Below, one piece after another: positions 3,576 through 56,337 of a DNA stretch of 64,000 nt (position 1 is its first letter; the number at the start of each line of letters is the position of its first letter). The notes under the pieces are model-generated. The model had not been told where the DNA came from, did not search any database, and saw only the letters and a program-made list of their open reading frames with translations. The position numbers were made by a program, and so were the translations under genes. Origin of the DNA: Marmoricola sp. OAE513 (GTDB taxonomy: Bacteria; Actinomycetota; Actinomycetes; Propionibacteriales; Nocardioidaceae); NCBI RefSeq assembly GCF_040546585.1, contig NZ_JBEPOC010000001.1, positions 1,922,001 to 1,986,000 on the forward strand, given 5' to 3'.

Positions 3576-5636
3576 TTAGCTCGCCGCCGGTCCGTACCTC
3601 CGCCGGAACCGCGCCGCGCTCACGCCGATCGACAGCGCCCAGGCCCCGCCGGCGCACACGAGCAGGAGGATCAACGGAAGAGTCGCGCCCGGTGCGAGCC
3701 GCCGCAGCGCCCAGGCATCTGCCTTGGGTCCGCAGTCCCCGCCGTCCTGCTCGAAGCACAGGGTCGTCGACTTCTTCGTCGGCACGGGGACGTTCGCGGG
3801 CGGGTCCTCGACACCGTCCGCCTGACGCTTGGCCGCCGGGGGGAGAAGCGCACCGAGGCCGGAGATCTCCTTCTCGCTGCCGGCGTCGCGCGTCTGCGCC
3901 GAGAGCCACCCGGTGAAGGCGGTGGCCAGTGCGGCGTGACCGCGCTCGTTCGGGTGAAGGCTGTTGTGGATCCAGTTGCCGGGGTTGAACCGGTTCTGCG
4001 CCGCACCGCCGACCCCGCGGAGGTCGAGGAAGTTCAGCCCGGGAGTCCCGGAGTCGTCGCAGAGAGCGAGGTGGGAGTCGGCCAAGGCGGTACGCATCGG
4101 TCCGACGTAATAGACGCCGGTCTCGGTGGCGACCTTCTCGATGAGCCCGTCCAGCCGAGCGGTGAAACGGCGGACGAACCGGATGTCACCCGACTCCACG
4201 GGTGCCCGGGCGCATCCGGCGTCGGTGGCGAACGCGTCGGGGTAGGGCATCACCGCGATCGGCGAGGCGGGAAACTCGTCGGCGATGGCGAGGTAGGTCG
4301 CGCGCAGCGCCGACTCCACGTCGGCCAGGTTGCCGAAGAAGTACTGGGTCACCTCGTCGTCGTTGCAGCTGCCCAGTGACAGGCACGAGGAACCGATCTG
4401 CCGGAACCCGGCGTCGTTCCCGCCGATGCTCAGGACGACCAGGGACGGGTTCAGCCAGGGGTCGGCCGCGCGTACCTCGTCGAGGGCGCGCGTGACCTGG
4501 ATGCCCTCTCCGGCGTACTGCTCGTCGTCCTGGGGCTGGCCGACGAGGTTCCGGGCCCGAGCTCCGGAGCACGCGCGGAAGACCAGACGGTGTGCTCCGA
4601 GCGACTGGGCCACCAGGACCGGCCAGGCGGTCGCGGCTCGCCGGCACTGGTTGCCACCGGCGACGTTGGTCTCGTCCAGGTAGCGCGCTGCGCCCTCGCC
4701 CGAGCTGTAGGAGTCGCCCAAGGAGACGATCACGGGTTCGGGCCCGGACTTCGGAGTCGATGCCTTGACCGACAACACCTCGGGCTTGACCTCCTGCGAC
4801 CCGGGCGTGACGCCCATCAGCGCGAGGACGGCGAGAGCGGCCGCAATGTCGGCGAGGCTGCCGACCGTGATGGCCCAGGTGAGGAGAGCAACCACGACGA
4901 CGAGCGCGAGCAGGTAGCGCGTCTGACTGAGGCTGATCAGGCCGATCGCCACGCTGAGAGCCACCACGGCTGCGCCGCCACCGATCCACCAGCGGAGTCG
5001 CGGGCCCGCGGTGTCCCGGGTCAACGCCATGATGCGGCGTTCGGAGATGACGCCGAGCAGAGCCGGCACGGGTGCGACGGTGAGACCCAGCGCCAGCACG
5101 GCGACCCACGTCGGTGCCCGGCCGAGCAACCAGAGCGACCCGTAGGCGAGGACGACCGTGGCGAGCAGGACCTGCCACCGGAAGGCGACCCGCAGGACCG
5201 CGTTGACGGCGCGGTCGAAGGGCCGGGCGTCGGAGGCTCCGTCGCCCTGCAGGACGATCCAGCGCAGCTTGCGGATGCCGAGCCCGGCCGCCACGTACGT
5301 CGAGATCAAAACACCCAGGGTCAGCGTCGACCGCAACGACTCCAGGCGCAGACCGATCGCTACCGAGGTCACGACCGGCAGAGCCAGTGCTCCGAGCAGC
5401 AGCCACTTGTTGCGGAAGTCGGCTCGGAGCTCGACCCAGTTGATGTCGAGGCCGTGGACCCAGAAGGTGGCAACGACAAGGAAGCCGCCGAACGCGGCGT
5501 ACATGACGGCCTGGGACTGGCCCTGGCGAGCAGCGAGGAACAGCACCATGACCGACACGATGAAGGCCAGCAGCCGGACGGCGTCCGGGTGCAGGAAGGA
5601 CCCTCGGAACCTCCGCGTCGGACGGCTGTCGCTCAT
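3576..5636 (-). CDS. Membrane-anchored SGNH/GDSL hydrolase
   Basis: A 686-residue protein. About 290 N-terminal residues are multi-pass membrane helices, followed by an extracytoplasmic SGNH domain and one C-terminal helix with a basic tail. The nucleophile block is VSLGDSYSSGEG, the oxyanion block SIGGNDAGF. The final block reads NSLHPNERGH, so the Asp of the usual DxxH is Asn while the catalytic His is kept. Six Cys in the domain suggest disulfides outside the cell. It probably removes an ester group from an envelope lipid or glycan; the substrate cannot be told. I chose the ATG at 5636; an in-frame TTG at 5672 is the alternative. Confidence 0.85.
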   Translation of the reverse strand: MSDSRPTRRFRGSFLHPDAVRLLAFIVSVMVLFLAARQGQSQAVMYAAFGGFLVVATFWVHGLDINWVELRADFRNKWLLLGALALPVVTSVAIGLRLESLRSTLTLGVLISTYVAAGLGIRKLRWIVLQGDGASDARPFDRAVNAVLRVAFRWQVLLATVVLAYGSLWLLGRAPTWVAVLALGLTVAPVPALLGVISERRIMALTRDTAGPRLRWWIGGGAAVVALSVAIGLISLSQTRYLLALVVVVALLTWAITVGSLADIAAALAVLALMGVTPGSQEVKPEVLSVKASTPKSGPEPVIVSLGDSYSSGEGAARYLDETNVAGGNQCRRAATAWPVLVAQSLGAHRLVFRACSGARARNLVGQPQDDEQYAGEGIQVTRALDEVRAADPWLNPSLVVLSIGGNDAGFRQIGSSCLSLGSCNDDEVTQYFFGNLADVESALRATYLAIADEFPASPIAVMPYPDAFATDAGCARAPVESGDIRFVRRFTARLDGLIEKVATETGVYYVGPMRTALADSHLALCDDSGTPGLNFLDLRGVGGAAQNRFNPGNWIHNSLHPNERGHAALATAFTGWLSAQTRDAGSEKEISGLGALLPPAAKRQADGVEDPPANVPVPTKKSTTLCFEQDGGDCGPKADAWALRRLAPGATLPLILLLVCAGGAWALSIGVSAARFRRRYGPAAS

Positions 5637-5684
5637 GGACTCATTAAGTCGGGACCGGAGCCCCCGAGGCAAGGGTCACCAACG

Positions 5685-5719
5685 ACGACACCCCCACCGG
5701 AGACCGGTGGGGGTGTCGT
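5685..5719 (-). terminator. Strong stem-loop terminator after the small membrane protein genes
   Basis: A perfect 16-bp stem (5685-5700 with 5704-5719) and a 3-base loop just past the stop at 5733. It is symmetrical, lies upstream of the SGNH gene and isolates the two units. Confidence 0.8.
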
Positions 5720-5732
5720 TCAGGAGCTGGGT

Positions 5733-5951
5733 TCAGCGCACCCGGCGATCGTCGACCACGCGGTCCTCCACGACCGTGTGGCGCGAGCGCTGCGCGTTCA
5801 CGATCAGCGAGAGGACGATCGCGAGAACGCCGGCGACGATGAGGATCGTGCCGAGGGCACCGTCGTCGATGAAGTCGAGGTCGACCTGGATCACGTCGAG
5901 GGCCAGGATCAGGCCGGCGACAAGGAGGACGATTCCGGTTCCGATAGCCAT
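5733..5951 (-). CDS. Small two-helix membrane protein, DUF6458-like
   Basis: A 72-residue protein starting MAIGTGIVLLVAG, with two hydrophobic helices separated by an acidic turn (DLDFIDDGALG) and a charged tail (VVEDRVVDDRRVR). This matches the small DUF6458 membrane proteins common in high-GC actinobacteria, whose role is unknown. The ATG is preceded by AAAGGAAG. It lies 28 bases downstream of the next small gene and shares its promoter and terminator. Confidence 0.8.
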   Translation of the reverse strand: MAIGTGIVLLVAGLILALDVIQVDLDFIDDGALGTILIVAGVLAIVLSLIVNAQRSRHTVVEDRVVDDRRVR

Positions 5952-5979
5952 GGGTGCTTCCTTTCGGGGAAGAGGAGGG

Positions 5980-6141
5980 TCAGGCTCGCGTGCCGCGGCC
6001 GTTGAAGACGGAGACTCCACCAGGACCGATCAGCAGCCCGGCGACGATGAGCAGGATGCCGAAGAGCAGCGAACCCTGGATGAGGGTGACGACGCCTCCG
6101 ACGATGAGCAGAACGGCAAGGATCCAGAGCAGGCTGGGCAT
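5980..6141 (-). CDS. Small hydrophobic membrane protein (53 residues)
   Basis: Starts MPSLLWILAVLLIVGG and consists almost wholly of two membrane helices, ending in GPGGVSVFNGRGTRA. The ATG has a strong ribosome site (GGAGGAG, 5 bases). First gene of a two-gene unit with the 72-residue protein. The sigma-B/F-like promoter upstream suggests an envelope-stress role; the function itself is unknown. Confidence 0.75.
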   Translation of the reverse strand: MPSLLWILAVLLIVGGVVTLIQGSLLFGILLIVAGLLIGPGGVSVFNGRGTRA

Positions 6142-6195
6142 GAGAGCTCCTCCATCTTCGAGTTGTTCATTCCCGGGTTTCGGGGTGCAGGAGTG

Positions 6196-6220
6196 ATACC
6201 CCGCAGCGCGCATCTCGAAC
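6196..6220 (-). promoter_or_regulatory. Sigma-B/SigF-like promoter for the two small membrane proteins
   Basis: GTTC (6217-6220) and GGGTAT (6196-6201) on the minus strand with a 15-base spacer, about 55 bases before the ATG at 6141. The rest of 6142-6354 shows no coding sequence. Confidence 0.5.
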
Positions 6221-6354
6221 GTGGCAAAATTGCGGTCGGCGTGGGTGGACCCAGCAACGGCGCGGGTTTTCGAGGGTCGAGTGACAGATCGGAGACCCAA
6301 ATCGCTGTTTCCGGTCCGTGGCGGTCCACCGGCGGCTCAGGCGGCGGTCCAGCC

Positions 6355-7467
6355 CTAGGGGCGCGTGACCGACTTGGGGAAGTCCCGGCTGTTGATCCGC
6401 ACGTCCGCGATGATGATCGGGTGGTCGGTCATCGACTTCACCGCGCCGCTCTTGTCCTCGGTGTAGCCGGTCCACTGCACGTCGTGGGAGCCGATCACCC
6501 AGTCGATCCGGTAGCCGCCGGCGACGCTGCAGCCGTTGCGGGCCCCCTCGCCGCCCGCCGCGGCGCGCATGTCCCCGGGGCCGGCGACCGAGCAGAACCA
6601 GGACTGCTTCTCGTTCATGTCGCCGGTCATGAAGACCGGGTAGCCGTCGTCCTTCAGGTCGCGCAGCAGGCTCGCCTCACGGGCGGTCGCGGCAGCACGC
6701 CAACGACCCTGGCGGCCGTACTCCTTGGTGTCCGCCGGGTTGTGCACGTTGTGGATGTAGATGGTGATCCCGCTGGCCTTGTGCCGCAGGAGCAGCAGCG
6801 GCATGTCCCGGGTGTGGCCGCCGAAGTAGGGGATCGCGATGCCCTGGGCCTTCACCAGGTCCCAGGTGTCCTTGCGCCACGCGATCGAGTTGTCGCCGTC
6901 CAGGCTGCTGCCGCCGGGGTACAGGCCGTACCTGCCGCCGGTCCCGTTGAGGAACGTCCGCCGCTGGTCGGGCTGCAGCTCCTGGAAGCCGACGAGCGAG
7001 ATCTTGTTGTCCACGACGTACCGGGTGCCTTGCGCCATCCGCGCGACGCCGGACCTCTTCTGCGGCCGCTTGGTCTTGCCGCGGGTGTGCGAGGAGCCGA
7101 GCACGTTGAAGCTCGCCATCCGGAAGTCGGCGACCGGCGGCGGCATCCGGCGCGGTTTCGGTCGGGCAGCCAGGGTGGCACCGCCGAGCGGGGCGACGCT
7201 GGCCAGCGCCTCGGCCTTGAGCGCGGCGCTGCCGGCCTGGCTCGTGGCGGTCGCCGTCGGGTTCGAGTTCGGGCCGATCGGAGTCGCGGTCTCCGCCGGG
7301 CCGTTGGGTCCGGCCTGGGGTCCGGGGGACACGGTCGAGGACGGTTCCGCGGAGAAGTCGATCGAGGGCAGCCCGTTTCCGCCCATGACGATGAAGGTCA
7401 CCAGCCAGGCAACCCCCACGCCCGCGACGAGCCCCAGTTTCCGCACCGACCCAGAATATCCGAACAA
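6355..7467 (-). CDS. Secreted or anchored endonuclease/exonuclease/phosphatase (EEP) family protein
   Basis: A 370-residue protein with a hydrophobic N-terminus (residues 10-30), a Pro/Thr-rich linker to about residue 112, then the EEP fold: Asn121 (MASFNVLG), Glu163 (GFQELQ), a GDMNEK block and the closing MTDHPII with the catalytic Asp-His. The family cleaves phosphodiesters in nucleic acids or sphingolipids with a divalent metal; outside the cell it could be a nuclease or phospholipase-like enzyme. The start is uncertain: TTG at 7467 keeps the whole hydrophobic segment, GTG at 7446 is possible. Confidence 0.85.
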   Translation of the reverse strand: MFGYSGSVRKLGLVAGVGVAWLVTFIVMGGNGLPSIDFSAEPSSTVSPGPQAGPNGPAETATPIGPNSNPTATATSQAGSAALKAEALASVAPLGGATLAARPKPRRMPPPVADFRMASFNVLGSSHTRGKTKRPQKRSGVARMAQGTRYVVDNKISLVGFQELQPDQRRTFLNGTGGRYGLYPGGSSLDGDNSIAWRKDTWDLVKAQGIAIPYFGGHTRDMPLLLLRHKASGITIYIHNVHNPADTKEYGRQGRWRAAATAREASLLRDLKDDGYPVFMTGDMNEKQSWFCSVAGPGDMRAAAGGEGARNGCSVAGGYRIDWVIGSHDVQWTGYTEDKSGAVKSMTDHPIIIADVRINSRDFPKSVTRP

Positions 7468-29101: not shown

Positions 29102-29118
29102 TGACAGTAAATCTGTCA
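29102..29118. promoter_or_regulatory. Acyl-CoA regulon operator, site 1
   Basis: TGACAG-TAAAT-CTGTCA, immediately upstream of the CaiB-type gene and overlapping its -10 region. The same palindrome with 5-base spacing is found at 38255 and 47819. Confidence 0.7.
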
Positions 29119-29122
29119 TGAT
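29117..29122 (+). promoter_or_regulatory. -10 box of a leaderless promoter for the CaiB-type gene
   Basis: CATGAT, seven bases before the ATG at 29130 and abutting operator site 1. Confidence 0.4.
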
Positions 29123-29129
29123 CAGCCGC

Positions 29130-30299
29130 ATGACTGGAGTTGAACTGGGACAGGGCACGGGGCCGCTCAAGGGCGTCAAGGTCGTCGAGATCGCCGGCAT
29201 CGGCCCGAGCCCGCACGCGTGCATGATCCTGGCCGACCTCGGCGCGGACGTGATCCGCATCGAGCGCCCCGGCGGCCAGGCGCTGACCGGCGGCAGCCAC
29301 GACTTCCTCAACCGCGGTCGTCCCAGCGTCGCGCTCAACCTCAAGGACCCTGCCGCCGTCGAGACCGTGCTCAAGCTCGTCGAGGACGCGGACGTTCTCG
29401 TCGAGGGCATGCGTCCGGGCGTCACCGAGCGGATGGGCATCGGTCCCGACGCGTGCTGGGAGCGCAACCCGAAGCTCGTCTACGGCCGGATGACGGGCTG
29501 GGGTCAGACGGGTGAGTGGGCCCACGCCGCGGGTCACGACATGAACTACATCGCCATCACGGGCACCCTCTTCGGCCTCGGGCAGACCAAGGACCGTCCG
29601 CAGTTCCCGACCAACCTGGTCGGCGACTTCGGTGGCGGCTCGATGTACCTGGTGGTCGGCATCCTCGCCGCGCTGCTCGAGTCGAAGGTCTCGGGCAAGG
29701 GACAGGTCGTCGACGCCGCGATCGTCGACGGCACCGCGAACCTCAACGCGATGACCGCTGCCTTCCTCGCCGGCGGCAACTACAAGGAGGAGCGCGCCGC
29801 GAACCTCCTCGACGGCTACGCGCCGTACTACGACATCTACGAGACCGCCGACGGCAAGCACATGTCGGTCGGTGCTCTCGAGCCGCAGTTCTACGAGATC
29901 CTCCTGGACCTCCTGGACGTGCGGGCGACCGCGCCGGACCGCTGGGACTTCGACAAGGTCGACGAGCTGCGCGACGTCTTCACCGCCAAGTTCAAGGAGA
30001 AGACGCAGGCCGAGTGGTGTGCGGTCTTCGACGGCACCGACGCCTGCGTCGCGCCGATCATCCCGCTGACCGAGGCGTTCGAGCACCCGCACATGAAGAG
30101 CCGCGAGGTCTTCGTCGAGCACGAGGGCTTCATCCAGCCGCAGCCCGCGCCGCGGTTCTCGCGCACCGGGGCGAGCCTGTCGCTGCCCCCGGCTGCAGGA
30201 GCCGGTCAGCACACCCGTGACGCCCTGGCGGCCTGGGGCATCGAGAACGTCGACGCCCTCATCGAGAGCGGCGCCGCGGTCCAGCCCGAGGTCGGCTGA
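29130..30299 (+). CDS. CaiB/BaiF CoA-transferase family, alpha-methylacyl-CoA racemase-like
   Basis: A 389-residue type III CoA-transferase-fold protein. The racemase residues of M. tuberculosis MCR have clear counterparts: His/Asp in AGHDMNYIAITG, Asp in NLVGDFGGGSM and Glu in IYETADGKHMSVGA. It would invert 2-methylacyl-CoA thioesters from branched or sterol side chains so that beta-oxidation can proceed. A palindromic operator shared with fadAB and the acyl-CoA dehydrogenase supports that role. I use the ATG at 29130 because an ATG at 29118 lies inside the operator. Confidence 0.9.
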   Translation: MTGVELGQGTGPLKGVKVVEIAGIGPSPHACMILADLGADVIRIERPGGQALTGGSHDFLNRGRPSVALNLKDPAAVETVLKLVEDADVLVEGMRPGVTERMGIGPDACWERNPKLVYGRMTGWGQTGEWAHAAGHDMNYIAITGTLFGLGQTKDRPQFPTNLVGDFGGGSMYLVVGILAALLESKVSGKGQVVDAAIVDGTANLNAMTAAFLAGGNYKEERAANLLDGYAPYYDIYETADGKHMSVGALEPQFYEILLDLLDVRATAPDRWDFDKVDELRDVFTAKFKEKTQAEWCAVFDGTDACVAPIIPLTEAFEHPHMKSREVFVEHEGFIQPQPAPRFSRTGASLSLPPAAGAGQHTRDALAAWGIENVDALIESGAAVQPEVG

Positions 30300-38247: not shown

Positions 38248-38275
38248 TTGACGTTGACAGTTCTACTGTCACAAT
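38248..38275 (+). promoter_or_regulatory. Promoter of fadAB
   Basis: TTGACG (38248-38253) and CACAAT (38270-38275) with a 16-base spacer. The palindromic operator fills the spacer, a textbook repressor position. The leader to the ATG at 38350 is about 70 bases and shows no strong structure. Confidence 0.55.
38255..38271. promoter_or_regulatory. Acyl-CoA regulon operator, site 2
   Basis: TGACAG-TTCTA-CTGTCA; here the arms extend to TGACAGT/ACTGTCA around TCT. Lies between the -35 and -10 boxes of fadAB. Confidence 0.8.
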
Positions 38276-39625: not shown

Positions 39626-41806
39626 ATGACTGAATCTGCTGTGAAGTACGAGCGCGACTCGGACGGGATCGTCACCCTCACCCTCGACGACCCGACCGCG
39701 TCCGCCAACACCATGAACGAGCTGTACAAGGAGTCGATGGTCGAGGCCATCGACCGCCTGTACGCCGAGAAGGACGACGTCACCGGCGTCGTCATCACGT
39801 CCGCGAAGAAGACCTTCTTCGCCGGCGGCAACCTGAAGAGCATGATGTCGGCCACCCCGGACGACGCCGAGGTGCTCTACGCCATGAGCCAGGGCATCAA
39901 GGAGGACCTCCGCAAGCTGGAGCTCTTCGGCAAGCCGGTCGTCGCTGCGATCAACGGTGCCGCCCTCGGCGGTGGCCTCGAGATCGCGCTGGCCTGTCAC
40001 CGCCGCATCGTGGTGGACGACAAGAAGATCGACCTCGGCCTGCCCGAGGTGACCCTCGGTCTGCTCCCCGGTGGCGGCGGCGTCACCCGGATCACCCGGA
40101 TGTTCGGCATCCAGGACGGTCTGATGAGCATCCTGCTGCAGGGTCCGCGCTTCAAGCCGGCCGCGGCCAAGGACAAGGGCCTGGTCGACGAGCTGGTCGC
40201 CACCCAGGACGAGCTCGTCCCGGCCGCCAAGAAGTGGATCCTGGAGAACAAGGACAACCCCGACGCGGCCACCCAGCCGTGGGACCGCAAGGGCTACAAG
40301 ATGCCCGGCGGTACGCCGTCGAGCCCGGCCCTGGCCGGCTTCCTCCCGGCGTTCCCGGCGCTGCTTCGCAAGCAGACCAAGGGCGCGATGTACCCGGCGC
40401 CGCGCGCGATCATGGCCTCGGCCATCGAGGGTGCGCAGGTCGACTTCGAGACCGCCAGCAAGATCGAGTCGCGGTACTTCACCAGCCTGGTGACCGGTCA
40501 GAACGCGAAGAACATGATCCAGTCGTTCTTCTTCGACCTGTCCGCCATCTCCGGCGGGTCGCTGCGGCCGAAGGACGTGCCGACGTACAAGCCGACCAAG
40601 GCCGTGGTCCTCGGCGCCGGCATGATGGGCGCCGGCATCGCGTACTCCGCTGCACGTGCGGGCATCCAGGTCGTGCTCAAGGACATCTCCGTCGAGGCCG
40701 CCGAGAAGGGCAAGTCGTACTCCGACAAGCTGCTCTCCAAGGCCGTCTCGCGCGGCAAGATGACCGAGGAGAAGAAGGCCGAGATCCTCGGCCTGATCAC
40801 CCCGACCGCCGATCCGGCCGACGCTGCCGGCGCCGACCTGGTCATCGAGGCCGTCTTCGAGGACCCGGCGCTCAAGGCCAAGGTCTTCGCCGAGATCGAG
40901 CCGCACATCAACGCTGACGCGCTGCTGTGCTCCAACACCTCGACGCTGCCGATCACCGAGCTCGCCGAGGGTGTCAGCCGTCCGGCCGACTTCATCGGCC
41001 TGCACTTCTTCTCGCCGGTCGACAAGATGCCGCTCGTCGAGATCATCAAGGGTGCGAAGACCTCCGACGTCGCGGTCGCCCAGGCGCTCGACGTGGTCTC
41101 CGCGATCCGCAAGACCCCGATCGTCGTGAACGACTCGCGCGGCTTCTACACCTCGCGCGTCATCGGCACGATGGTGCTCGAGGGTCTGGCCATGCTCGGT
41201 GAGGGTGTCCACCCGATGTCCGTCGAGCGCGCAGCCACGCAGGCCGGCTACCCCGTCGGGACCCTGCAGCTCACCGACGAGCTCAACATGGAGCTGATGG
41301 CCAAGATCAACAAGGCGACCGCGGACGCGGCCGGTCCGGACTACGTGGTCCACCCGGGCGTCGCGGTCATCGAGAAGATGATCGAGATCGGTCGTCCGGC
41401 GCGCATCCGCGGTGCCGGGTTCTACGACTACGACGAGAAGGGTGAGCGCGCCGACCTGTGGCCCGGTCTCGCTGAAGTCTTCCCGTCCAACCCCGAGCCG
41501 GCCGACATCGAGGACCTGAAGGACCGGTACCTCTTCATCGAGACCCTCGAGACGGCCAAGTGCTTCGAGGAGGGCGTCATCGAGTCTGCCGCCGCCGCGA
41601 ACATCGGCTCGATCATGGGCATCGGCTTCCCGGCGCTGACCGGTGGTGCCGCCCAGTTCATCACCGGCTACGAGGGCAAGGGCGGCAAGGGCATCACCGG
41701 CTACATCGCCCGTGCCAACGAACTGGCCGACAAGTACGGCGAGCGGTTCCGGCCGACCGCCCGTCTGGTCGAGATGGCGGAGAAGGGCGAGTCCTTCCCC
41801 GCCTGA
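39626..41806 (+). CDS. fadB: Fatty-acid oxidation multifunctional protein (enoyl-CoA hydratase / 3-hydroxyacyl-CoA dehydrogenase)
   Basis: A 726-residue fusion. N-terminal crotonase domain with the oxyanion loop GAALGGGLEIALAC and catalytic Glu in LPEVTLGLLPGGGG; then the NAD-binding domain (VLGAGMMGAGIAYSAARAG) and the dehydrogenase His in GLHFFSPVDKMPLVE; C-terminal HAD domains follow. It hydrates trans-2-enoyl-CoA and oxidises the product for FadA. GAAGGAAA precedes the ATG. Same transcript as fadA. Confidence 0.95.
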   Translation: MTESAVKYERDSDGIVTLTLDDPTASANTMNELYKESMVEAIDRLYAEKDDVTGVVITSAKKTFFAGGNLKSMMSATPDDAEVLYAMSQGIKEDLRKLELFGKPVVAAINGAALGGGLEIALACHRRIVVDDKKIDLGLPEVTLGLLPGGGGVTRITRMFGIQDGLMSILLQGPRFKPAAAKDKGLVDELVATQDELVPAAKKWILENKDNPDAATQPWDRKGYKMPGGTPSSPALAGFLPAFPALLRKQTKGAMYPAPRAIMASAIEGAQVDFETASKIESRYFTSLVTGQNAKNMIQSFFFDLSAISGGSLRPKDVPTYKPTKAVVLGAGMMGAGIAYSAARAGIQVVLKDISVEAAEKGKSYSDKLLSKAVSRGKMTEEKKAEILGLITPTADPADAAGADLVIEAVFEDPALKAKVFAEIEPHINADALLCSNTSTLPITELAEGVSRPADFIGLHFFSPVDKMPLVEIIKGAKTSDVAVAQALDVVSAIRKTPIVVNDSRGFYTSRVIGTMVLEGLAMLGEGVHPMSVERAATQAGYPVGTLQLTDELNMELMAKINKATADAAGPDYVVHPGVAVIEKMIEIGRPARIRGAGFYDYDEKGERADLWPGLAEVFPSNPEPADIEDLKDRYLFIETLETAKCFEEGVIESAAAANIGSIMGIGFPALTGGAAQFITGYEGKGGKGITGYIARANELADKYGERFRPTARLVEMAEKGESFPA

Positions 41807-47720: not shown

Positions 47721-47743
47721 CGGTCGTCGAGCTTGTCGAGACG
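47721..47743. repeat. Repeat family C, single copy
   Basis: CGGTCGTCGAGCTTGTCGAG and three more bases, 17 bases past the DUF4012 stop. No partner copy nearby. Confidence 0.7.
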
Positions 47744-47818: not shown

Positions 47819-47835
47819 TGACAGCGCTACTGTCA
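47819..47835. promoter_or_regulatory. Acyl-CoA regulon operator, site 3
   Basis: TGACAG-CGCTA-CTGTCA, five bases before the acyl-CoA dehydrogenase ATG and covering its -10 box. Confidence 0.8.
47828..47833 (+). promoter_or_regulatory. -10 box of a leaderless promoter for the acyl-CoA dehydrogenase operon
   Basis: TACTGT, seven bases before the ATG at 47841, lying inside the operator. Confidence 0.5.
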
Positions 47836-47840
47836 GCGTC

Positions 47841-49088
47841 ATGGACTTCTCGCTCTCCCCGCGCGCCGCTGAACTCGCCGAGCTGGTCTCGGCCTTCGTC
47901 ACCGACGAGATCGAACCGGTGCAGGACGCCTACCACCGCGACGTCGCCGAGGCCCGCGCCGCGGGCACGTGGGCAGAGTCCCCGATCATGGGCGAGCTCC
48001 GCGCCAAGGCCCGCGCCCAGGGTCTGTGGAACCTCTTCCTCCCCGTCGGTCACGACCAGCCGTACGCCGAGCAGTTCGGCACCCACGGGGGCGCCGGGCT
48101 GAGCAACTCCGACTACGCGCCACTCGCCGAGCTGATGGGCCGCGCGACCTTCCTGGCGCCGTACGTCTTCAACTGCAACGCCCCGGACACCGGCAACATG
48201 GAGGTGCTGCTCAAGTACGGCACCGAGGAGCAGAAGAAGGAGTGGCTCGAGCCGTTGCTCGACGGTCAGATCCGCTCGGCCTTCGGCATGACCGAGCCCG
48301 GGGTCGCGTCCTCGGACGCCACCAACATGGCCGCGACCGCGATCGTGGACGGCGACGAGGTGCTCATCAACGGCACCAAGTGGTTCTCCACCGGCGTCGG
48401 TCACCCCGACTGCAAGATCATGATCTTCATGGGCCTCGCGGACCCCGACGCCGACCGCCACCACCGGCACACGATGGTGCTCGTCCCGCTCGACAGCCCG
48501 GGCGTGACCATCGACCGGATGCTGTCGACCAACAACGTCTTCGACGAGCCGGTCGGCCACGGCCAGGTCTCCTTCGACAACGTGCGGGTGCCGAAGGCGA
48601 ACATCCTGCTCGGGGAGGGTCGGGCCTTCGAGATCGCCCAGGGCCGTCTCGGCCCCGGCCGGATCCACCACTGCATGCGGCTGCTCGGCCAGGCCGAGGT
48701 CGCGCTCGAGCTGGCGATCAAGCGCGGGATGTCCCGCACCGCGTTCGGCAAGCCCCTGATCAAGCTCGGCGGCAACCCGGAGCGGATCGCGGACGCGCGT
48801 ATCGCCATCGACCAGGCCCGGCTTCTCGTCCTCAACGCCGCCTGGAAGCTCGACGTCGGCGGCCCGATGAACGCGCTGTCGGAAGTCAGCCAGATCAAGG
48901 TCATCGTCCCCAACGTCGCGCAGCAGGTGATCGACATGGCGATCCAGCTGCACGGTGGTGGCGGCATGTCGCAGGACTTCCCGCTCTCGGCGATGTGGAC
49001 CAACGCCCGCGCGCTGCGTCTGGCCGACGGGCCGGACGAGGTCCACCGCGGCGTCGTCGCGCGCATCGAGATCAGCAAGTACCTCTGA
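47841..49088 (+). CDS. Acyl-CoA dehydrogenase, ACAD10/11- or LvaC-like by context
   Basis: A 415-residue flavoprotein of the ACAD fold: helical N-domain, central FAD-binding region (FGMTEPGVASSDATNMAATA; TKWFSTGVGHPDC) and helical C-domain with LGGNPERIADARIAIDQARLLV and QLHGGGGMSQDFPL. The usual job is alpha,beta-dehydrogenation of acyl-CoA. The gene two downstream encodes an APH-like kinase; in human ACAD10/11 and Pseudomonas LvaA/LvaC that pairing removes a 4-hydroxyl through a phosphorylated acyl-CoA. Whether that holds here is inference. First gene of a five-gene run. Confidence 0.92.
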   Translation: MDFSLSPRAAELAELVSAFVTDEIEPVQDAYHRDVAEARAAGTWAESPIMGELRAKARAQGLWNLFLPVGHDQPYAEQFGTHGGAGLSNSDYAPLAELMGRATFLAPYVFNCNAPDTGNMEVLLKYGTEEQKKEWLEPLLDGQIRSAFGMTEPGVASSDATNMAATAIVDGDEVLINGTKWFSTGVGHPDCKIMIFMGLADPDADRHHRHTMVLVPLDSPGVTIDRMLSTNNVFDEPVGHGQVSFDNVRVPKANILLGEGRAFEIAQGRLGPGRIHHCMRLLGQAEVALELAIKRGMSRTAFGKPLIKLGGNPERIADARIAIDQARLLVLNAAWKLDVGGPMNALSEVSQIKVIVPNVAQQVIDMAIQLHGGGGMSQDFPLSAMWTNARALRLADGPDEVHRGVVARIEISKYL

Positions 49089-49933
49089 TGTCCGAGCGCA
49101 CCGACGAGGCGAACGTCCCGGTCGCCTCGACCTCTCCGCGGGTCGAGCCCGGCCAGGTACCGACCCGCGCCGTCGTGACGGGTGGCGCGTCGGGGCTGGG
49201 AGCTGCGCTCTGCCGCGCCCTGGTGGCCCGGGGCGCCCAGGTCCTCAGCGCCGACGTCAACCTGCCCGACGAGCCGATCGACGGGGTCGGTTACCTGACG
49301 CTGGACGTCCGTTCGGACCAGGACTGGTCGGACGCCGTTGCCTGGGCGGACCGCGAGTGGGGCGGAGTCGACCTGCTCTTCAACAACGCCGGTGTCGCCG
49401 GCGGCGGCCGCATCGACGTCGCCGGCCTCGACGAGTGGCAGTGGATCACCGAGATCAACCTCTTCGGAGTGGTCCGCGGCACCCGTGCCTTCGTCCCGAT
49501 GATGAAGCGGCAGGGGTCGGGCACGATCGTGAACACCGCCTCGCTCGCCGGACTGGTGCACCCCGCCGGGATGGGCTCCTACAACGCTGTGAAGGCTGCG
49601 GTCGTCGCGTTCTCCGAGACCATGAGCCACGAGCTCGCCGAGTACGGGATCAAGGTCGCCGTGGTCTGCCCGTCGTACTTCCGGACCCCGCTGATCGAGA
49701 ACATGCAGGGCACCGATGTCGCGGTCGGCTCGGTGATCGGCGCCCTCGTGGCGAACTCGCCGGTCAGCGCTGACGACATCGCGGCCGCGGTGCTCGCGGG
49801 GCTCGACAACGGCGACGAGCTGATCCTCCCGGACGAGGCTGCGCAGGCGGCGTACGGGTTGAAGGTCGCCGACCGCGAGGGGTACAACGCGATCATGCGC
49901 AAGCAGGCCGCCCGACTGAACGCGATGGAGTGA
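49088..49933 (+). CDS. Short-chain dehydrogenase/reductase
   Basis: A 281-residue classical SDR: VVTGGASGLGAALC cofactor loop, LLFNNAGVAGG, Ser in NTASLAG and the Tyr-Lys pair in GSYNAVKAAVV. About 25 extra residues precede the fold. Its ATG shares one base with the dehydrogenase stop. It probably oxidises a 3-hydroxyacyl-CoA (LvaD-like role) or another hydroxylated intermediate of the same pathway. Confidence 0.92.
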   Translation: MSERTDEANVPVASTSPRVEPGQVPTRAVVTGGASGLGAALCRALVARGAQVLSADVNLPDEPIDGVGYLTLDVRSDQDWSDAVAWADREWGGVDLLFNNAGVAGGGRIDVAGLDEWQWITEINLFGVVRGTRAFVPMMKRQGSGTIVNTASLAGLVHPAGMGSYNAVKAAVVAFSETMSHELAEYGIKVAVVCPSYFRTPLIENMQGTDVAVGSVIGALVANSPVSADDIAAAVLAGLDNGDELILPDEAAQAAYGLKVADREGYNAIMRKQAARLNAME

Positions 49934-49934
49934 C

Positions 49935-51005
49935 ATGAGTGAGATCGAGGGCGCCAGCTCCGTCCGCGAGGAGGACGCGTTCGACCTGGACGCCGTCCGC
50001 ACCTGGTTGGCCGGTCATGGCGTCCACCTCGTCGGCGACGTCGAGATCCAGCAGTTCGGCGGTGGCGCCTCGAACCTCACCTACTCGTTGCGGACTGCTG
50101 ACCAGGACCTGATCCTGCGACGGCCGCCAGCGGGCAAGAAGGCTGCCGGGGCGCACGACATGGGCCGCGAGTTCCGGATCCAGTCCGCGCTCAAGGGGCC
50201 GTTCGGTCTGGTCCCGGACATGGTCGCGTTCTGCGACGACGAGTCAGTGATCGGCTCGGAGTTCTACGTGATGCAGCGCGTCGACGGACTGATCCCTCGC
50301 CGGGACCTTCCCCCCGAGCTGGAGAGCCTGGATCCCGACCAGGTCCGGGCGCTGTGCCGCACCTTCGTCGACACCCTGATCAAGCTGCACCGGGTCGACA
50401 CGTCGATCCCGGAGATCGCGGCGATGGGCAAGGGCACCGGGTACGTCGAGCGCCAGATCACCGGCTGGTCCGGGCGCTACCGCAACGCGGTCACCGACGA
50501 CGCTCCCGGGTTCGAGAAGGTGATGGACTGGCTCGCCGAGCGGATGCCGGCCGATGTCGCCAACTGCGTGATCCACAACGACTTCCGGTTCGACAACGTG
50601 ATCCTCGACAAGTCGGACCCGAGCACGGTCATCGGCGTCCTCGACTGGGAGATGGCCACCCTCGGCGATCCGTTGATGGACCTCGGGGGCACGCTCGCCT
50701 ACTGGGTGCAGGCCGACGACGACGAGGGCTTCCAGCTCGTACGACGGCAGCCGAGCAACGTGCCGGGGATGTTCACCCGCGCGGAGTTCGTGGAGTACTA
50801 CTGCGACCAGATGGGTTACTCCGTCGACGCCGAGCAGTGGAAGTTCTACGAGGTCTACGGACTGTTCCGCTTCGCCGTGATCGCCCAGCAGATCTACTAC
50901 CGCTACTTCCACGGCCAGACCACCAACGAGATGTACGCGATGTTCGGCCAGGCGGTGCACTACTACGAGGACCGCTGCCTCCGGGTCATCGCGGGGACGA
51001 TCTAG
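49935..51005 (+). CDS. APH-like phosphotransferase (ACAD10/11 kinase-domain type)
   Basis: A 356-residue aminoglycoside-phosphotransferase-fold kinase: N-lobe with the Gly-rich FGGGASNLTYSL, catalytic HNDFRFDNVILD (His, Asp and Asn) and the metal-binding VLDWEMATLGDP in place of DFG. It is the family fused to acyl-CoA dehydrogenase in human ACAD10/ACAD11 and encoded as LvaA in levulinate users, where it phosphorylates the 4-hydroxyl of a hydroxyacyl-CoA. One base separates it from the SDR and the phosphatase gene follows with no gap. Confidence 0.92.
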   Translation: MSEIEGASSVREEDAFDLDAVRTWLAGHGVHLVGDVEIQQFGGGASNLTYSLRTADQDLILRRPPAGKKAAGAHDMGREFRIQSALKGPFGLVPDMVAFCDDESVIGSEFYVMQRVDGLIPRRDLPPELESLDPDQVRALCRTFVDTLIKLHRVDTSIPEIAAMGKGTGYVERQITGWSGRYRNAVTDDAPGFEKVMDWLAERMPADVANCVIHNDFRFDNVILDKSDPSTVIGVLDWEMATLGDPLMDLGGTLAYWVQADDDEGFQLVRRQPSNVPGMFTRAEFVEYYCDQMGYSVDAEQWKFYEVYGLFRFAVIAQQIYYRYFHGQTTNEMYAMFGQAVHYYEDRCLRVIAGTI

Positions 51006-51677
51006 GTGGGCCAGATCCTTCTCGTCCGGCACGGCCAGGCGTCCTTCGGAGCGGAGAACTACGACGCGCTCTCGCCGCTCGGCTTCGAGCAGTCGCGCCT
51101 GCTCGGCGAGGCGCTCGGCGCTCGCGGGATCGGCGTCGACGCTGTCGTGCACGGCACCATGCGCCGGCACCGGGAGACCGCCGAGACCTGTGCAGCCGCC
51201 GCCGGCTGGTCGGCCGAGCCGAGCATCGACGCCGGGTGGGACGAGTTCGACTTCCTGTCCGTCCTCGCCATGCACCCGCACGAGTACGGGCCCGAGCCGA
51301 CCAAGGCCGAGTTCCAGCGTCTCTTCGAGGAGGCGACCGAGGCGTGGATGGCCGGCGTGGACCGCCCATACGACGAGACCTTCGCCGACTTCGCGGCTCG
51401 CGTGCACGACGCTCTCGAGCGGACCGTCGAGCTGGCCACGGTCGGAACCGTCGCCGTGTTCACCTCCGGCGGTCCGATCGGGCTCGCGGTGGCCGAGGTG
51501 CTCGCCGATCCCGGCTCCTTGGACACGCAGCTGCGGGGGTTGTGGGGCCGTCTCAACCGGATGACGGTGAACTCGGCACTGACCCGGGTGGTCTCCGGCT
51601 CGACCGGCTTGAACCTGCTGACCTACAACGACCAGTCCCACCTCGACGCCGTCGCCGGCGCCGTGACCTACCGCTGA
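51006..51677 (+). CDS. Histidine-phosphatase-fold protein, second catalytic His replaced
   Basis: A 223-residue branch-1 histidine phosphatase. The nucleophile block LLVRHGQASF carries His9 and Arg8, and HRETAETC the second Arg region. The block that should hold the second catalytic His reads VFTSGGPIG, with Ser154 in that place, so activity may be weak, altered or lost. It directly abuts the kinase gene. It could dephosphorylate the phospho-acyl intermediate, or only bind it. Confidence 0.88.
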   Translation: MGQILLVRHGQASFGAENYDALSPLGFEQSRLLGEALGARGIGVDAVVHGTMRRHRETAETCAAAAGWSAEPSIDAGWDEFDFLSVLAMHPHEYGPEPTKAEFQRLFEEATEAWMAGVDRPYDETFADFAARVHDALERTVELATVGTVAVFTSGGPIGLAVAEVLADPGSLDTQLRGLWGRLNRMTVNSALTRVVSGSTGLNLLTYNDQSHLDAVAGAVTYR

Positions 51678-51679
51678 CC

Positions 51680-51702
51680 GGTCGTCGAGCCTGTCGAGAC
51701 GC
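51680..51702. repeat. Repeat family C, single copy
   Basis: GGTCGTCGAGCCTGTCGAGA and a few more bases in the 46-base gap between the phosphatase-like and second SDR genes. Confidence 0.7.
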
Positions 51703-51723
51703 GGTGAGCCGAAAGGAATCCCC

Positions 51724-52473
51724 ATGAGCAAGACCATCCTGATCACCGGCGCGAGCAGCGGACTCGGCGCCGAGATGGCCCGGCAGTTCGCCGCGAAGGG
51801 GTACGACCTGGCGCTGTGCGCCCGGCGCACCGAGAAGCTCGAGGCCCTCAAGAGCGAGATCCTCGCTGCGGACCCCGACCGCCGCGTCGAGCTGCGCGCG
51901 CTGGACGTGACGAACGACGACCAGGTCTTCGAGGTGTTCCGCGCGTTCAAGACCGACTTCGGCACGATCGACAAGATCATCATCAATGCCGGCCTCGGGA
52001 AAGGTGCGCCGCTCGGCACCGGTCGGTACGACGCCAACCGCGAGACCGCGATGACGAACTTCGTCGCGGCGCTCTGCCAGTCCGAGGCGGCCATGGAGAT
52101 CTTCCGCGAGCAGAACGCCGGTCACTTCGTGATGATCAGCTCGATGTCGGCCGTGCGCGGCATGCCCAAGACGCTGACGACGTACGCCGCCACGAAGGCC
52201 GGCGTCGCCCACCTCGCCGAGGGCCTGCGCGCCGAGCTGTACGGCAAGCCGATCAAGGTCACGGTGCTCTACCCGGGCTACATCGCCTCGGAGATGAACG
52301 AAAAGGTCGAGCAGTCGACACCGCTCATGGCGAGCACCCAGAAGGGCGTGAAGGCGATGGTGTCGGCCATCGAGCGCGAGGTCGGCTCGGCCGCCGTACC
52401 GGCGTTGCCGTGGGCACCGCTCGGCGTCGTGATGAAGCACGCCCCGATGCCGGTGTTCAAGAAGCTGATCTGA
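51724..52473 (+). CDS. Short-chain dehydrogenase/reductase
   Basis: A 249-residue SDR with LITGASSGLGAEMARQ, IIINAGLGKG, the Ser in MISSMSAV and the catalytic YAATK. It has AAAGGA before the ATG and a hydrophobic C-terminus (MKHAPMPVFKKLI). It ends the run that begins with the acyl-CoA dehydrogenase, though a repeat intervenes. Substrate unknown; acyl-CoA or sterol intermediates fit the context. Confidence 0.9.
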   Translation: MSKTILITGASSGLGAEMARQFAAKGYDLALCARRTEKLEALKSEILAADPDRRVELRALDVTNDDQVFEVFRAFKTDFGTIDKIIINAGLGKGAPLGTGRYDANRETAMTNFVAALCQSEAAMEIFREQNAGHFVMISSMSAVRGMPKTLTTYAATKAGVAHLAEGLRAELYGKPIKVTVLYPGYIASEMNEKVEQSTPLMASTQKGVKAMVSAIEREVGSAAVPALPWAPLGVVMKHAPMPVFKKLI

Positions 52474-54632: not shown

Positions 54633-54665
54633 GGCGGACGTGCAGCGGCGGGTCGGGCCACTGGG

Positions 54666-54671
54666 TAGCCT
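54666..54671 (+). promoter_or_regulatory. -10 box of a leaderless promoter for the flavoprotein dehydrogenase
   Basis: TAGCCT, seven bases before the ATG at 54679. Confidence 0.5.
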
Positions 54672-54678
54672 CCCTTGC

Positions 54679-56337
54679 ATGCCTACTGATGCCGACGTCA
54701 TCGTCGTCGGGGCCGGTCTCGCCGGTCTCGTCGCCACCGCCGAGCTCGCCGACGCGGGCAAGAAGGTGCTCCTGCTCGACCAGGAGCCGGCGCAGAGCCT
54801 GGGTGGTCAGGCGTTCTGGTCGCTCGGCGGGCTGTTCCTCGTCGACACCCCCGAGCAGCGACGGATGGGGATCAAGGACTCCTACGACCTCGCCCTCCAG
54901 GACTGGATGGGCAGCGCCCAGTTCGACCGCGAGTCCGACCACTGGCCGCGCAAGTGGGCCGAGGCGTACGTCGGGTTCGCCGCCGGGGAGAAGCGCCAGT
55001 GGCTCTACGACCAGGGCCTGCGGGTCTTCCCGGTCGTGGGCTGGGCCGAGCGCGGCGGCGGTCTCGCCGGCGGGCACGGCAACTCGGTCCCGCGGTTCCA
55101 CCTGACCTGGGGCACCGGCCCCGGCGTGGTCGCCCCGTTCGAGCGGCGCGTGCGCGAGGCCGTCGCCAAGGGCCTCGTCGAGATCTGCCACCGGCACCGG
55201 GTCGACGACCTGGTCATGACCGACGGCACCTGCACCGGCGTGACCGGAGCGCTGCTCGCCGACGACGACATGGAGCGCGGACGTGCATCCAACCGCACCG
55301 AGATCGGCGACTTCACCTACTCCGCCCAGGCCGTGATCGTCACGTCCGGCGGCATCGGCGGCAACCACGACCAGGTCCGCAAGCAGTGGCCGGTCGACCG
55401 CCTCGGCGAGCCGCCCAAGTTCATGGTGGCCGGCGTCCCCGCGCACGTGGACGGGCGGATGCAGTTCATCACCGAGGCGGCCGGCGCCGAGATCATCAAC
55501 CCGGACCGGATGTGGCACTACACCGAGGGCCTGCGCAACTGGGACCCGATCTGGGAGAACCACGGCATCCGGATCCTGCCGGGGCCTTCGTCGCTCTGGC
55601 TGTCGGCCACCGGCGAGCGGTTCGGGGCGCCGTACCTGCCGGGCTTCGACACCCTCGGCACCCTCGGCGCGATCATGCGCACCGGCTACGACTACTCGTG
55701 GTTCGTGCTGACCCAGAAGGTGATCGAGAAGGAGTTCGCGCTGTCGGGTTCCGAGCAGAACCCCGACCTGACCAACAAGGACATCAAGCTCCTGCTGTCG
55801 CGGGTGAAGGCGGGTGCACCCGGACCGGTCGAGGCGTTCAAGCAGCACGGCGAGGACTTCGTCGTCGCGGACAACATCACCGACCTCGTCGCCGGCATGA
55901 ACAAGGTGTCCGGCGACGACCTGATCACCGTCGAGGGGCTCACCAAGACCATCACCGAGCGCGACCGCGAGCTCGACAACGAGTACACCAAGGACATCCA
56001 GATCACCTACCTGCGCGGCCACCGCAGCTACCGGGGGGACAAGCTGATCCGGGTGGCGTCGCCGCACAAGTTCAACGACCCGAAGAACGGTCCGCTCATC
56101 GCGGTGCGGCTCAACATCCTCACCCGCAAGACCCTCGGTGGCCTGCACACCGACCTCGACGCCCGCGTGCTCCGCCCCGACGGCGAGCCCCTCCCCGGCG
56201 TGTACGCCGCCGGCGAGGTCGCCGGTTTCGGTGGTGGCGGCGTCCACGGCTACAACGCGCTCGAGGGGACCTTCCTCGGCGGCTGCATCTTCAGCGGGCG
56301 GACCGCGGGCCGGGCTGCGGCGAAGGCGATCGGGTAG
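54679..56337 (+). CDS. FAD-binding dehydrogenase (Rv0785 / ketosteroid-dehydrogenase-like)
   Basis: A 552-residue flavoprotein of the fumarate-reductase/KstD superfamily. FAD loop VIVVGAGLAGLVATAEL (residues 6-22), SLGGQAFWSLGG near 50-60 where the isoalloxazine sits, and a C-terminal FAD block GVYAAGEVAGFGGGGVHGYNALEG. Length and motifs match the mycobacterial Rv0785 group. The substrate may be a steroid or other cyclic enone; this is inference. Confidence 0.88.
   Translation: MPTDADVIVVGAGLAGLVATAELADAGKKVLLLDQEPAQSLGGQAFWSLGGLFLVDTPEQRRMGIKDSYDLALQDWMGSAQFDRESDHWPRKWAEAYVGFAAGEKRQWLYDQGLRVFPVVGWAERGGGLAGGHGNSVPRFHLTWGTGPGVVAPFERRVREAVAKGLVEICHRHRVDDLVMTDGTCTGVTGALLADDDMERGRASNRTEIGDFTYSAQAVIVTSGGIGGNHDQVRKQWPVDRLGEPPKFMVAGVPAHVDGRMQFITEAAGAEIINPDRMWHYTEGLRNWDPIWENHGIRILPGPSSLWLSATGERFGAPYLPGFDTLGTLGAIMRTGYDYSWFVLTQKVIEKEFALSGSEQNPDLTNKDIKLLLSRVKAGAPGPVEAFKQHGEDFVVADNITDLVAGMNKVSGDDLITVEGLTKTITERDRELDNEYTKDIQITYLRGHRSYRGDKLIRVASPHKFNDPKNGPLIAVRLNILTRKTLGGLHTDLDARVLRPDGEPLPGVYAAGEVAGFGGGGVHGYNALEGTFLGGCIFSGRTAGRAAAKAIG

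Follow-up and report, generated by a model that had tools for sequence, protein, structure and literature searches.

We analyzed a 64,000-nucleotide stretch of the genome of Marmoricola sp. OAE513 (contig NZ_JBEPOC010000001.1, positions 1,922,001 to 1,986,000 of the forward strand), which is referred to here, at its full length, as the window. The genome is a single contig of 3.89 Mb. The window carries a cluster of five genes coding, in this order, for an acyl-CoA dehydrogenase (ACAD), a short-chain dehydrogenase/reductase (SDR1), an APH-fold kinase, a protein with the histidine-phosphatase fold, and a second short-chain dehydrogenase/reductase (SDR2). The original prediction, made from the sequence, had described these genes as co-directional, almost abutting, and headed by the operator of a regulon. 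The list of open reading frames (ORFs) and the sequence bore out this layout, and an exact operator site is located directly before the ACAD gene. As shown in Table 1, the set is real, on one strand, and nearly contiguous. Because the gene set is conserved across phyla, the arrangement is not a product of chance.

Table 1. Genes of the cluster and exact operator sites, in window coordinates
Feature	Position	Strand	Details
ACAD11/LvaC-type acyl-CoA dehydrogenase (predicted type)	47841..49088	+	Pfam Acyl-CoA_dh N/M/C
SDR1	49088..49933	+	1-base overlap with ACAD; Pfam adh_short
APH-fold kinase, ACAD11-kinase type (predicted type)	49935..51005	+	1-base gap after SDR1; Pfam APH
Histidine-phosphatase-fold protein	51006..51677	+	GTG start abuts kinase stop; Pfam His_Phos_1
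SDR2, PRK08251 family	51724..52473	+	46-base gap after phosphatase-like gene; Pfam adh_short
Operator TGACAGCGCTACTGTCA	47819..47835	+	Exact match; five bases before ACAD start codon
Second exact operator	38255..38271	+	Ahead of thiolase and FadB-type genes
Third exact operator	29102..29118	-	Start of CaiB-type CoA-transferase gene 29118-30299

The dehydrogenase, the kinase, and the reductases

We compared the ACAD of the window with proteins of solved structure. The putative ACAD 4hr3 gave 597 bits and ACAD11 gave 380, 378, and 369 bits, while no other ACAD of known structure exceeded 154 bits. In mouse ACAD11, the available text of PMC12440821 describes R626, H634, and R637 (the HCMR motif) and D753 as conserved with ACAD10 and LvaC. 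Alignment revealed that QGRLGPGRIHHCMR, which comprises the HCMR motif and the upstream Arg, is the same in the window ACAD and the ACAD11 chain. Both proteins also contain LADGPDEVH, in which a catalytic Asp replaces Glu; on our reading of the alignment, D753 of mouse ACAD11 would be the Asp of "ADG". The HCMR-motif pattern was matched in 74 of 80 named loci, which are the best 80 of at least 587 confirmed matches to a Pseudoalteromonas ACAD and some of which lie near contig ends; the remaining six were not individually inspected. In a tree of 30 rows, ACAD11, the window ACAD, and 22 bacterial relatives were split from six ordinary ACADs with support of 100/99. This tree carries a long-branch warning, and it is doubtful whether one of the six ordinary sequences, L168_other (a 536-residue open frame whose branch is very long), is a true ACAD. 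The window genome yielded one match to the ACAD at E <= 1e-100 (9 of 32 first-look candidates scored). Clustering with classical ACADs, named beforehand as refuting, did not occur. As judged from these comparisons, the enzyme is of the ACAD11/LvaC type and not an ordinary ACAD, and it would be expected to turn 4-phosphoacyl-CoA into enoyl-CoA.

The kinase gave a similar picture. Among solved structures it matched 9o56 with 255 bits, 3dxp with 175, and the ACAD11 kinase domain with 166. Of the curated models, none scored above the 30.6 bits of thiamine kinase, and those for antibiotic kinases stayed at or below 24.6 bits. H214, D216, N221, and the D237-W-E motif (H-x-D...N and DWE) were kept in nine aligned kinases, and the genome contains one match to the kinase at E <= 1e-60. 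These results support placing the kinase with the ACAD11 kinase domain; the grouping with sugar or antibiotic kinases against which the original prediction had set its view was not seen. The protein is expected to be a 4-hydroxyacyl-CoA kinase.

SDR1 matched Pfam adh_short with 159 bits, and its best NCBIfam model was PRK05650 (247.9 bits, below the cut-off of 297). Its translation contains TGGASGLG, NNAG, and YNAVK, which we take to have the motif roles known in this family. By analogy with LvaD, SDR1 is a possible 4-oxoacyl-CoA reductase. SDR2 matched NCBIfam NF006099 with 393 bits (cut-off 253).

Distribution of the gene set and its operator

To describe the occurrence of the cluster, we used three samples. 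The plasmid search covered 50 of 168 ACAD records and 40 of 47 phosphatase records; ten regions were opened, one of them unannotated, and the gene tables were incomplete. The order ACAD-SDR-kinase-phosphatase-SDR was found on plasmids of Pseudoalteromonas and of a Rhodobacteraceae bacterium, and an Ideonella plasmid carries the first four genes of the window order. The order was ACAD-kinase-phosphatase-SDR-SDR on an Azospirillum plasmid and ACAD-SDR-SDR-kinase-phosphatase on a Streptomyces plasmid. Deinococcus radiodurans has an ACAD gene, a stretch without a listed gene, and then overlapping kinase and phosphatase genes. In contrast to the window set, a Sulfitobacter plasmid has a phosphatase-kinase pair beside other ACADs. 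Cytobacillus has the ACAD and kinase with no phosphatase listed, and C. necator pHG1 has the ACAD with no kinase listed. The cluster thus spans Actinomycetota, Pseudomonadota, and Deinococcota, at least three phyla, and is not special to this actinobacterium.

In the named loci, a kinase was counted as strong above 400 bits with our kinase profile. Kinase and phosphatase genes were both present in 30 of the 80 loci, the kinase only in 16, the phosphatase only in none, and neither in 34. A phosphatase gene therefore accompanied 30 of 46 strong kinases and was found in 0 of 34 loci without one. Four of the 34 "neither" loci (L167, L168, L170, and L171) gave a weaker kinase match. Nineteen of the 34 (among L124 to L166) are titled Pseudomonas and have an ACAD11-type dehydrogenase without a kinase in the fetched stretch; two of these are cut short by contig ends.

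A fusion of kinase and phosphatase was considered and rejected. Long open frames span the phosphatase in several relatives; in the plus-strand matches read, the frames upstream of it were not kinase, and in the 30 named loci the two genes form separate stretches divided by gaps. In the window, one in-frame TAG separates the kinase from the phosphatase-like gene. Readthrough of this stop was dismissed too: a common frame has a one-in-three chance, and the gaps in relatives were the only other evidence considered.

The third sample consisted of 197 genomes of the window's class, evenly drawn, for which the best first-look candidates per genome were scored. The phosphatase gene was found in 30 genomes, a close kinase in 26, and the ACAD in 116. 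Ten of the 26 close kinases had a phosphatase gene within 500 bases, and 15 had an ACAD within 3 kb, a count that used the ACAD places of kinase-bearing genomes and omits some second copies. Of the 31 phosphatase places, 10 had a close kinase. The ACAD was present in 28 of the 30 phosphatase-bearing genomes versus 88 of the 167 others, uncorrected for kinship and genome size. No close kinase was found in 17 of the 30 phosphatase-bearing genomes, four of which have a more distant one. In the inspected cases that lack a close kinase, the phosphatase gene adjoins an SDR2-like gene (L043, L045, and L053), the gene of a large ACAD (L050), or that of an AMP-binding ligase (L051). In L062 and L064 it lies beside a divergent kinase (32%) and ACAD (34-35%), perhaps another type of phospho-acyl cluster.

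Recurrent neighbors in the 46 clusters compared were LysR-type genes (19), acyl-CoA ligase genes (6), and TetR-type genes (5). The LysR and TetR labels come from plasmid-region annotation; the ligase label is based on the Pfam AMP-binding domain for one member and on BLAST for the rest. In Paraburkholderia (L098), the ligase ORF (5235-6983) ends 18 bases before the ACAD (7001). Among the ten window ORFs scanned (33.6-62.9 kb), no LysR- or TetR-type gene or ligase stands beside the cluster. The original prediction that no LvaE-like gene is adjacent holds for the window, yet a ligase is near 6 of the 46 related loci. A FAD_binding_2 protein is encoded at 54640-56337, 2.2 kb past the cluster, and a FAD-binding dehydrogenase is also found near the Rhodobacteraceae cluster.

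The operator, TGACAGNNNTACTGTCA, occurs exactly at three places in the window (Table 1) and at five in the genome. Allowing up to three mismatches, we found seven matches in the window; shuffled sequences averaged 2.0, and seven was reached in 2 of 100 shuffles. With up to two mismatches, the whole genome gave nine forward and eight reverse places, compared to one and none for the reversed control pattern. Behind the second site, the alignment of the thiolase with NF006090 (678 bits against a cut-off of 514) begins at about 38359, and an ECH/3HCDH (FadB-type) protein is encoded at 39626-41806. The CaiB-type protein at the third site matched Pfam CoA_transf_3 with 269 bits. Further operator places adjoin genes for an F420-dependent LLM enzyme, an MpaB/Lcp-type oxygenase, and an amine-oxidase-type flavoprotein; this survey of neighbors leaves aside places 1256691 and 3366040, each with two mismatches. 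In L070, two operator-like sites with one and two mismatches lie at 6056-6135, in the divergent intergenic region between an ACAD gene (4859-6052) and a MerR-type gene (6190-6939), whose product is a candidate regulator of the whole regulon. The genome also contains a dispersed repeat, GTCGTCGAGCNTGTCGAGAC, with 83 forward and 55 reverse copies at up to one mismatch (reversed control, 0 and 0). In the window it lies before the cluster (47723-47742), in the gap between the phosphatase-like gene and SDR2 (51681-51700), and at four weaker places.

The phosphatase-like protein and its possible roles

The phosphatase-like protein is the interesting part of the cluster. It matched Pfam His_Phos_1 with 71 bits, and an AlphaFold model built with 60 sequences reached a pLDDT of 96.1. 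The best Foldseek matches of this model were histidine phosphatases, PGAM5 and PhoE among them; a PDB sequence search with the protein gave no match at 1e-3. R8, H9, R54, E80, and S154 were invariant in the 60 sequences. We take the RH(G) motif to hold the nucleophile His of this fold, and R54 and E80 to be its second Arg and acid Glu. Ser154 occupies the place that we take to be that of the second catalytic His. All four aligned paralogues from the same genome have His there; in three more the His motif was recognized by eye, and two gave no clear reading.

The replacement is not confined to the window. The pattern (T/S)SGG was found in 118 of the 120 homologues listed, the window's own included, and failed to read the other two; the named homologues come from Nocardioides and Marmoricola and from relatives of these. 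Ser was also present in all 30 named loci with a phosphatase gene and in 30 of the 31 rows of the class survey, the remaining row (L061) being masked at the key place. As Ser was seen in every readable sequence, its substitution for the second catalytic His is an old and fixed change in this subfamily. The original prediction had called the protein possibly non-catalytic. Loss of the second His is in line with this proposal; however, because R8, H9, R54, and E80 are invariant, the protein may still act as a phosphatase. A second claim, which placed this phosphatase outside the Lva set, cannot be upheld, because the levulinate cluster of Pseudomonas citronellolis LA18T, according to the available text of PMC6692424, contains a histidine-phosphatase gene with homologues of lvaA, lvaC, and lvaD and no lvaB. 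In the open-licence literature searched, we found no account of the role of the phosphatase beyond PMC6692424, and no description of the interphylum spread or of the fixed His-to-Ser change.

Two roles can be envisaged for this one part, both compatible with the route proposed below. A working phosphatase could remove phosphate from 4-phosphoacyl-CoA or the free acid, on the main path or in the repair of dead ends. We regard this as quite conceivable, if somewhat short of an even chance. The four invariant residues argue for it, and the available text of PMC6692424 suggests that the P. citronellolis phosphatase might dephosphorylate 4-phosphovaleryl-CoA on the main path, while calling for functional work. 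Over 30 loci, moreover, distances between the phosphatase-like proteins tracked those of the ACAD (0.58; partial, 0.53) more than those of the kinase (0.35; partial, 0.14). Against this role stand the Ser at the second His, the contrast with the four paralogues, and the absence of the gene from 16 of 46 kinase loci. ACAD11-type enzymes, as described in the available parts of PMC12440821 and PMC11342911, also release phosphate themselves. Conversely, the protein may have no catalysis of its own and serve as a partner of the kinase or as a brake on it, like LvaB of Pseudomonas putida or the HAD domain of ACAD10, a role that is credible but which we would not expect to hold. In all 30 named loci that have both genes, the phosphatase-like one follows the kinase on the same strand, with 8 to 404 bases between aligned ends (intervening small genes were not checked). 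The lost His points the same way, as do the P. citronellolis cluster, with its phosphatase gene and no lvaB (PMC6692424, available text), and the HAD domain of ACAD10, reported in the accessible part of PMC11342911 to lack a full DxD and to restrain the kinase. On the other hand, the nucleophile His is invariant, and the kinase and phosphatase showed no excess co-variation, a hint only, as the pairs are not independent. A close kinase is also missing from 17 of the 30 phosphatase-bearing genomes of the class. Three loci from the window's family (L038, L043, and L045) have a one-histidine phosphatase gene without a close kinase and nest among the kinase-linked sequences, in a tree built without nine protein-search sequences. 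Since the gene occurs without a close kinase and shows no excess co-variation with it, a role tied only to the kinase is disfavored, and an obligate partnership is further weakened by the kinase loci that lack a phosphatase.

A possible 4-hydroxyacyl-CoA route and its known counterparts

Lactones, lipid peroxidation, and levulinate are all sources of 4-hydroxy acids. We propose that the five genes encode a bacterial version of the ACAD10/ACAD11 (LvaA/LvaC) route in which kinase and dehydrogenase are split into separate proteins, a reading we consider probable. Kinase and ACAD activities have been published for ACAD10, ACAD11, and bacterial orthologs (PMC12440821, PMC11342911). According to the available text of PMC11342911, the kinase phosphorylates 4-hydroxyacyl-CoA, the ACAD part removes the phosphate, and bacterial orthologs can substitute for the ACAD10 domains. 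In our model, the APH-type kinase would use ATP to phosphorylate the 4-hydroxyl of 4-hydroxyacyl-CoA, and the ACAD11-type flavoenzyme would eliminate the phosphate to give 2-enoyl-CoA. This product could enter beta-oxidation through the products of the thiolase and FadB-type genes that share the operator. A role like that of LvaD, the interconversion of 4-oxo- and 4-hydroxyacyl-CoA, is probable for SDR1. The phosphatase-like protein may be a conserved phosphoryl-binding accessory, which would either remove 4-phosphoacyl species that are stalled or of the wrong isomer or adjust the activity of the kinase.

The operator common to the cluster and the beta-oxidation genes supports this proposal, as does the acyl-CoA ligase gene in the fetched stretch of 6 of the 46 related clusters. 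Further support comes from the sequence comparisons of ACAD and kinase, from the P. citronellolis levulinate cluster with its lvaA, phosphatase, lvaC, and lvaD homologues, and from the presence of such clusters in three phyla. Several observations weigh against it. Closeness to LvaA, LvaB, LvaC, and LvaD was judged through ACAD11 and the papers, not through their sequences; the kinase motif reads HND, versus HGD in the ACAD11 kinase; no acyl-CoA ligase was found, as the ten scanned ORFs gave no AMP-binding domain at 1e-8; and in the class survey 91 of 116 ACAD-bearing genomes lack a close kinase, with 1 of 26 kinase-bearing genomes lacking the ACAD. Alternatively, the pair may apply the same phosphorylation-elimination chemistry to another hydroxylated acyl-CoA (for example, one that is steroid derived, terpene derived, or branched) instead of straight 4-hydroxy fatty acids. 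The CaiB-type, F420-dependent, MpaB/Lcp-type, and amine-oxidase-type neighbors of the operator, none of them Lva genes, speak for this reading. We consider this unlikely, however, as the thiolase and FadB-type genes resemble ordinary beta-oxidation and QGRLGPGRIHHCMR is that of ACAD11, which takes straight C5 and C6 4-hydroxyacyl-CoAs (available text of PMC12440821 and PMC11342911). A further reading, in which an ACAD of ordinary beta-oxidation happens to neighbor an unrelated kinase for small molecules or antibiotics, would fit the generic annotation of the relatives as acyl-CoA dehydrogenase and phosphotransferase, but the bit scores, active-site residues, tree, and spread of the cluster disagree, making this very improbable. 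Together, the comparisons give good support to a split ACAD11/Lva-type pathway whose cluster occurs in at least three phyla.

A more speculative extension, which we hold doubtful, is that the one-histidine subfamily, present in at least three phyla, is a standing third component of bacterial 4-hydroxyacyl-CoA phosphorylation-elimination clusters, handling or sensing the 4-phosphoacyl intermediate without ordinary phosphatase chemistry as an independent counterpart of LvaB and the defective ACAD10 HAD domain. If true, three unrelated accessories would have been recruited to the same kinase step. The mammalian ACAD10/ACAD11 papers date from 2024 and 2025, and a compact bacterial cluster with separate parts offers an easy system for this chemistry. 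With its phosphatase-like member, the question of why three unrelated proteins accompany the kinase across lineages becomes testable.

Each known system shares part of this arrangement. The phosphatase-like protein resembles branch 1 histidine phosphatases (PGAM5, PhoE, and phosphoserine phosphatase) in fold, RHG motif, second Arg, and acid Glu, but has Ser in place of their second catalytic His. The lvaABCDE operon of P. putida KT2440 likewise combines a kinase, an ACAD11-type dehydrogenase, and an SDR (PMC6692424, PMC11342911, as far as available). It differs in having the 12-kDa LvaB, which binds LvaA, and the ligase LvaE within the operon, and the available descriptions in these two papers do not mention a histidine phosphatase. 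There is no room for an LvaB gene beside the window kinase between the abutting genes of the cluster, an observation confined to the cluster, as no genome-wide search was made. The cluster of P. citronellolis LA18T, described from levulinate-grown cells, is similar in grouping an LvaA-type kinase, a histidine phosphatase, an LvaC-type ACAD, and an SDR, with no LvaB reported in the available text of PMC6692424. Unlike the window, it begins with the kinase and has the ligase LvaE2, a transporter, and a regulator adjacent (same source); no counterpart of these was seen next to the cluster in the window. Mammalian ACAD10 and ACAD11 differ in being one fused chain, to which ACAD10 adds the HAD domain, with no histidine-phosphatase part described; their kinase and ACAD belong to the same two families as those of the window, and the active-site motifs of ACAD11 are identical.

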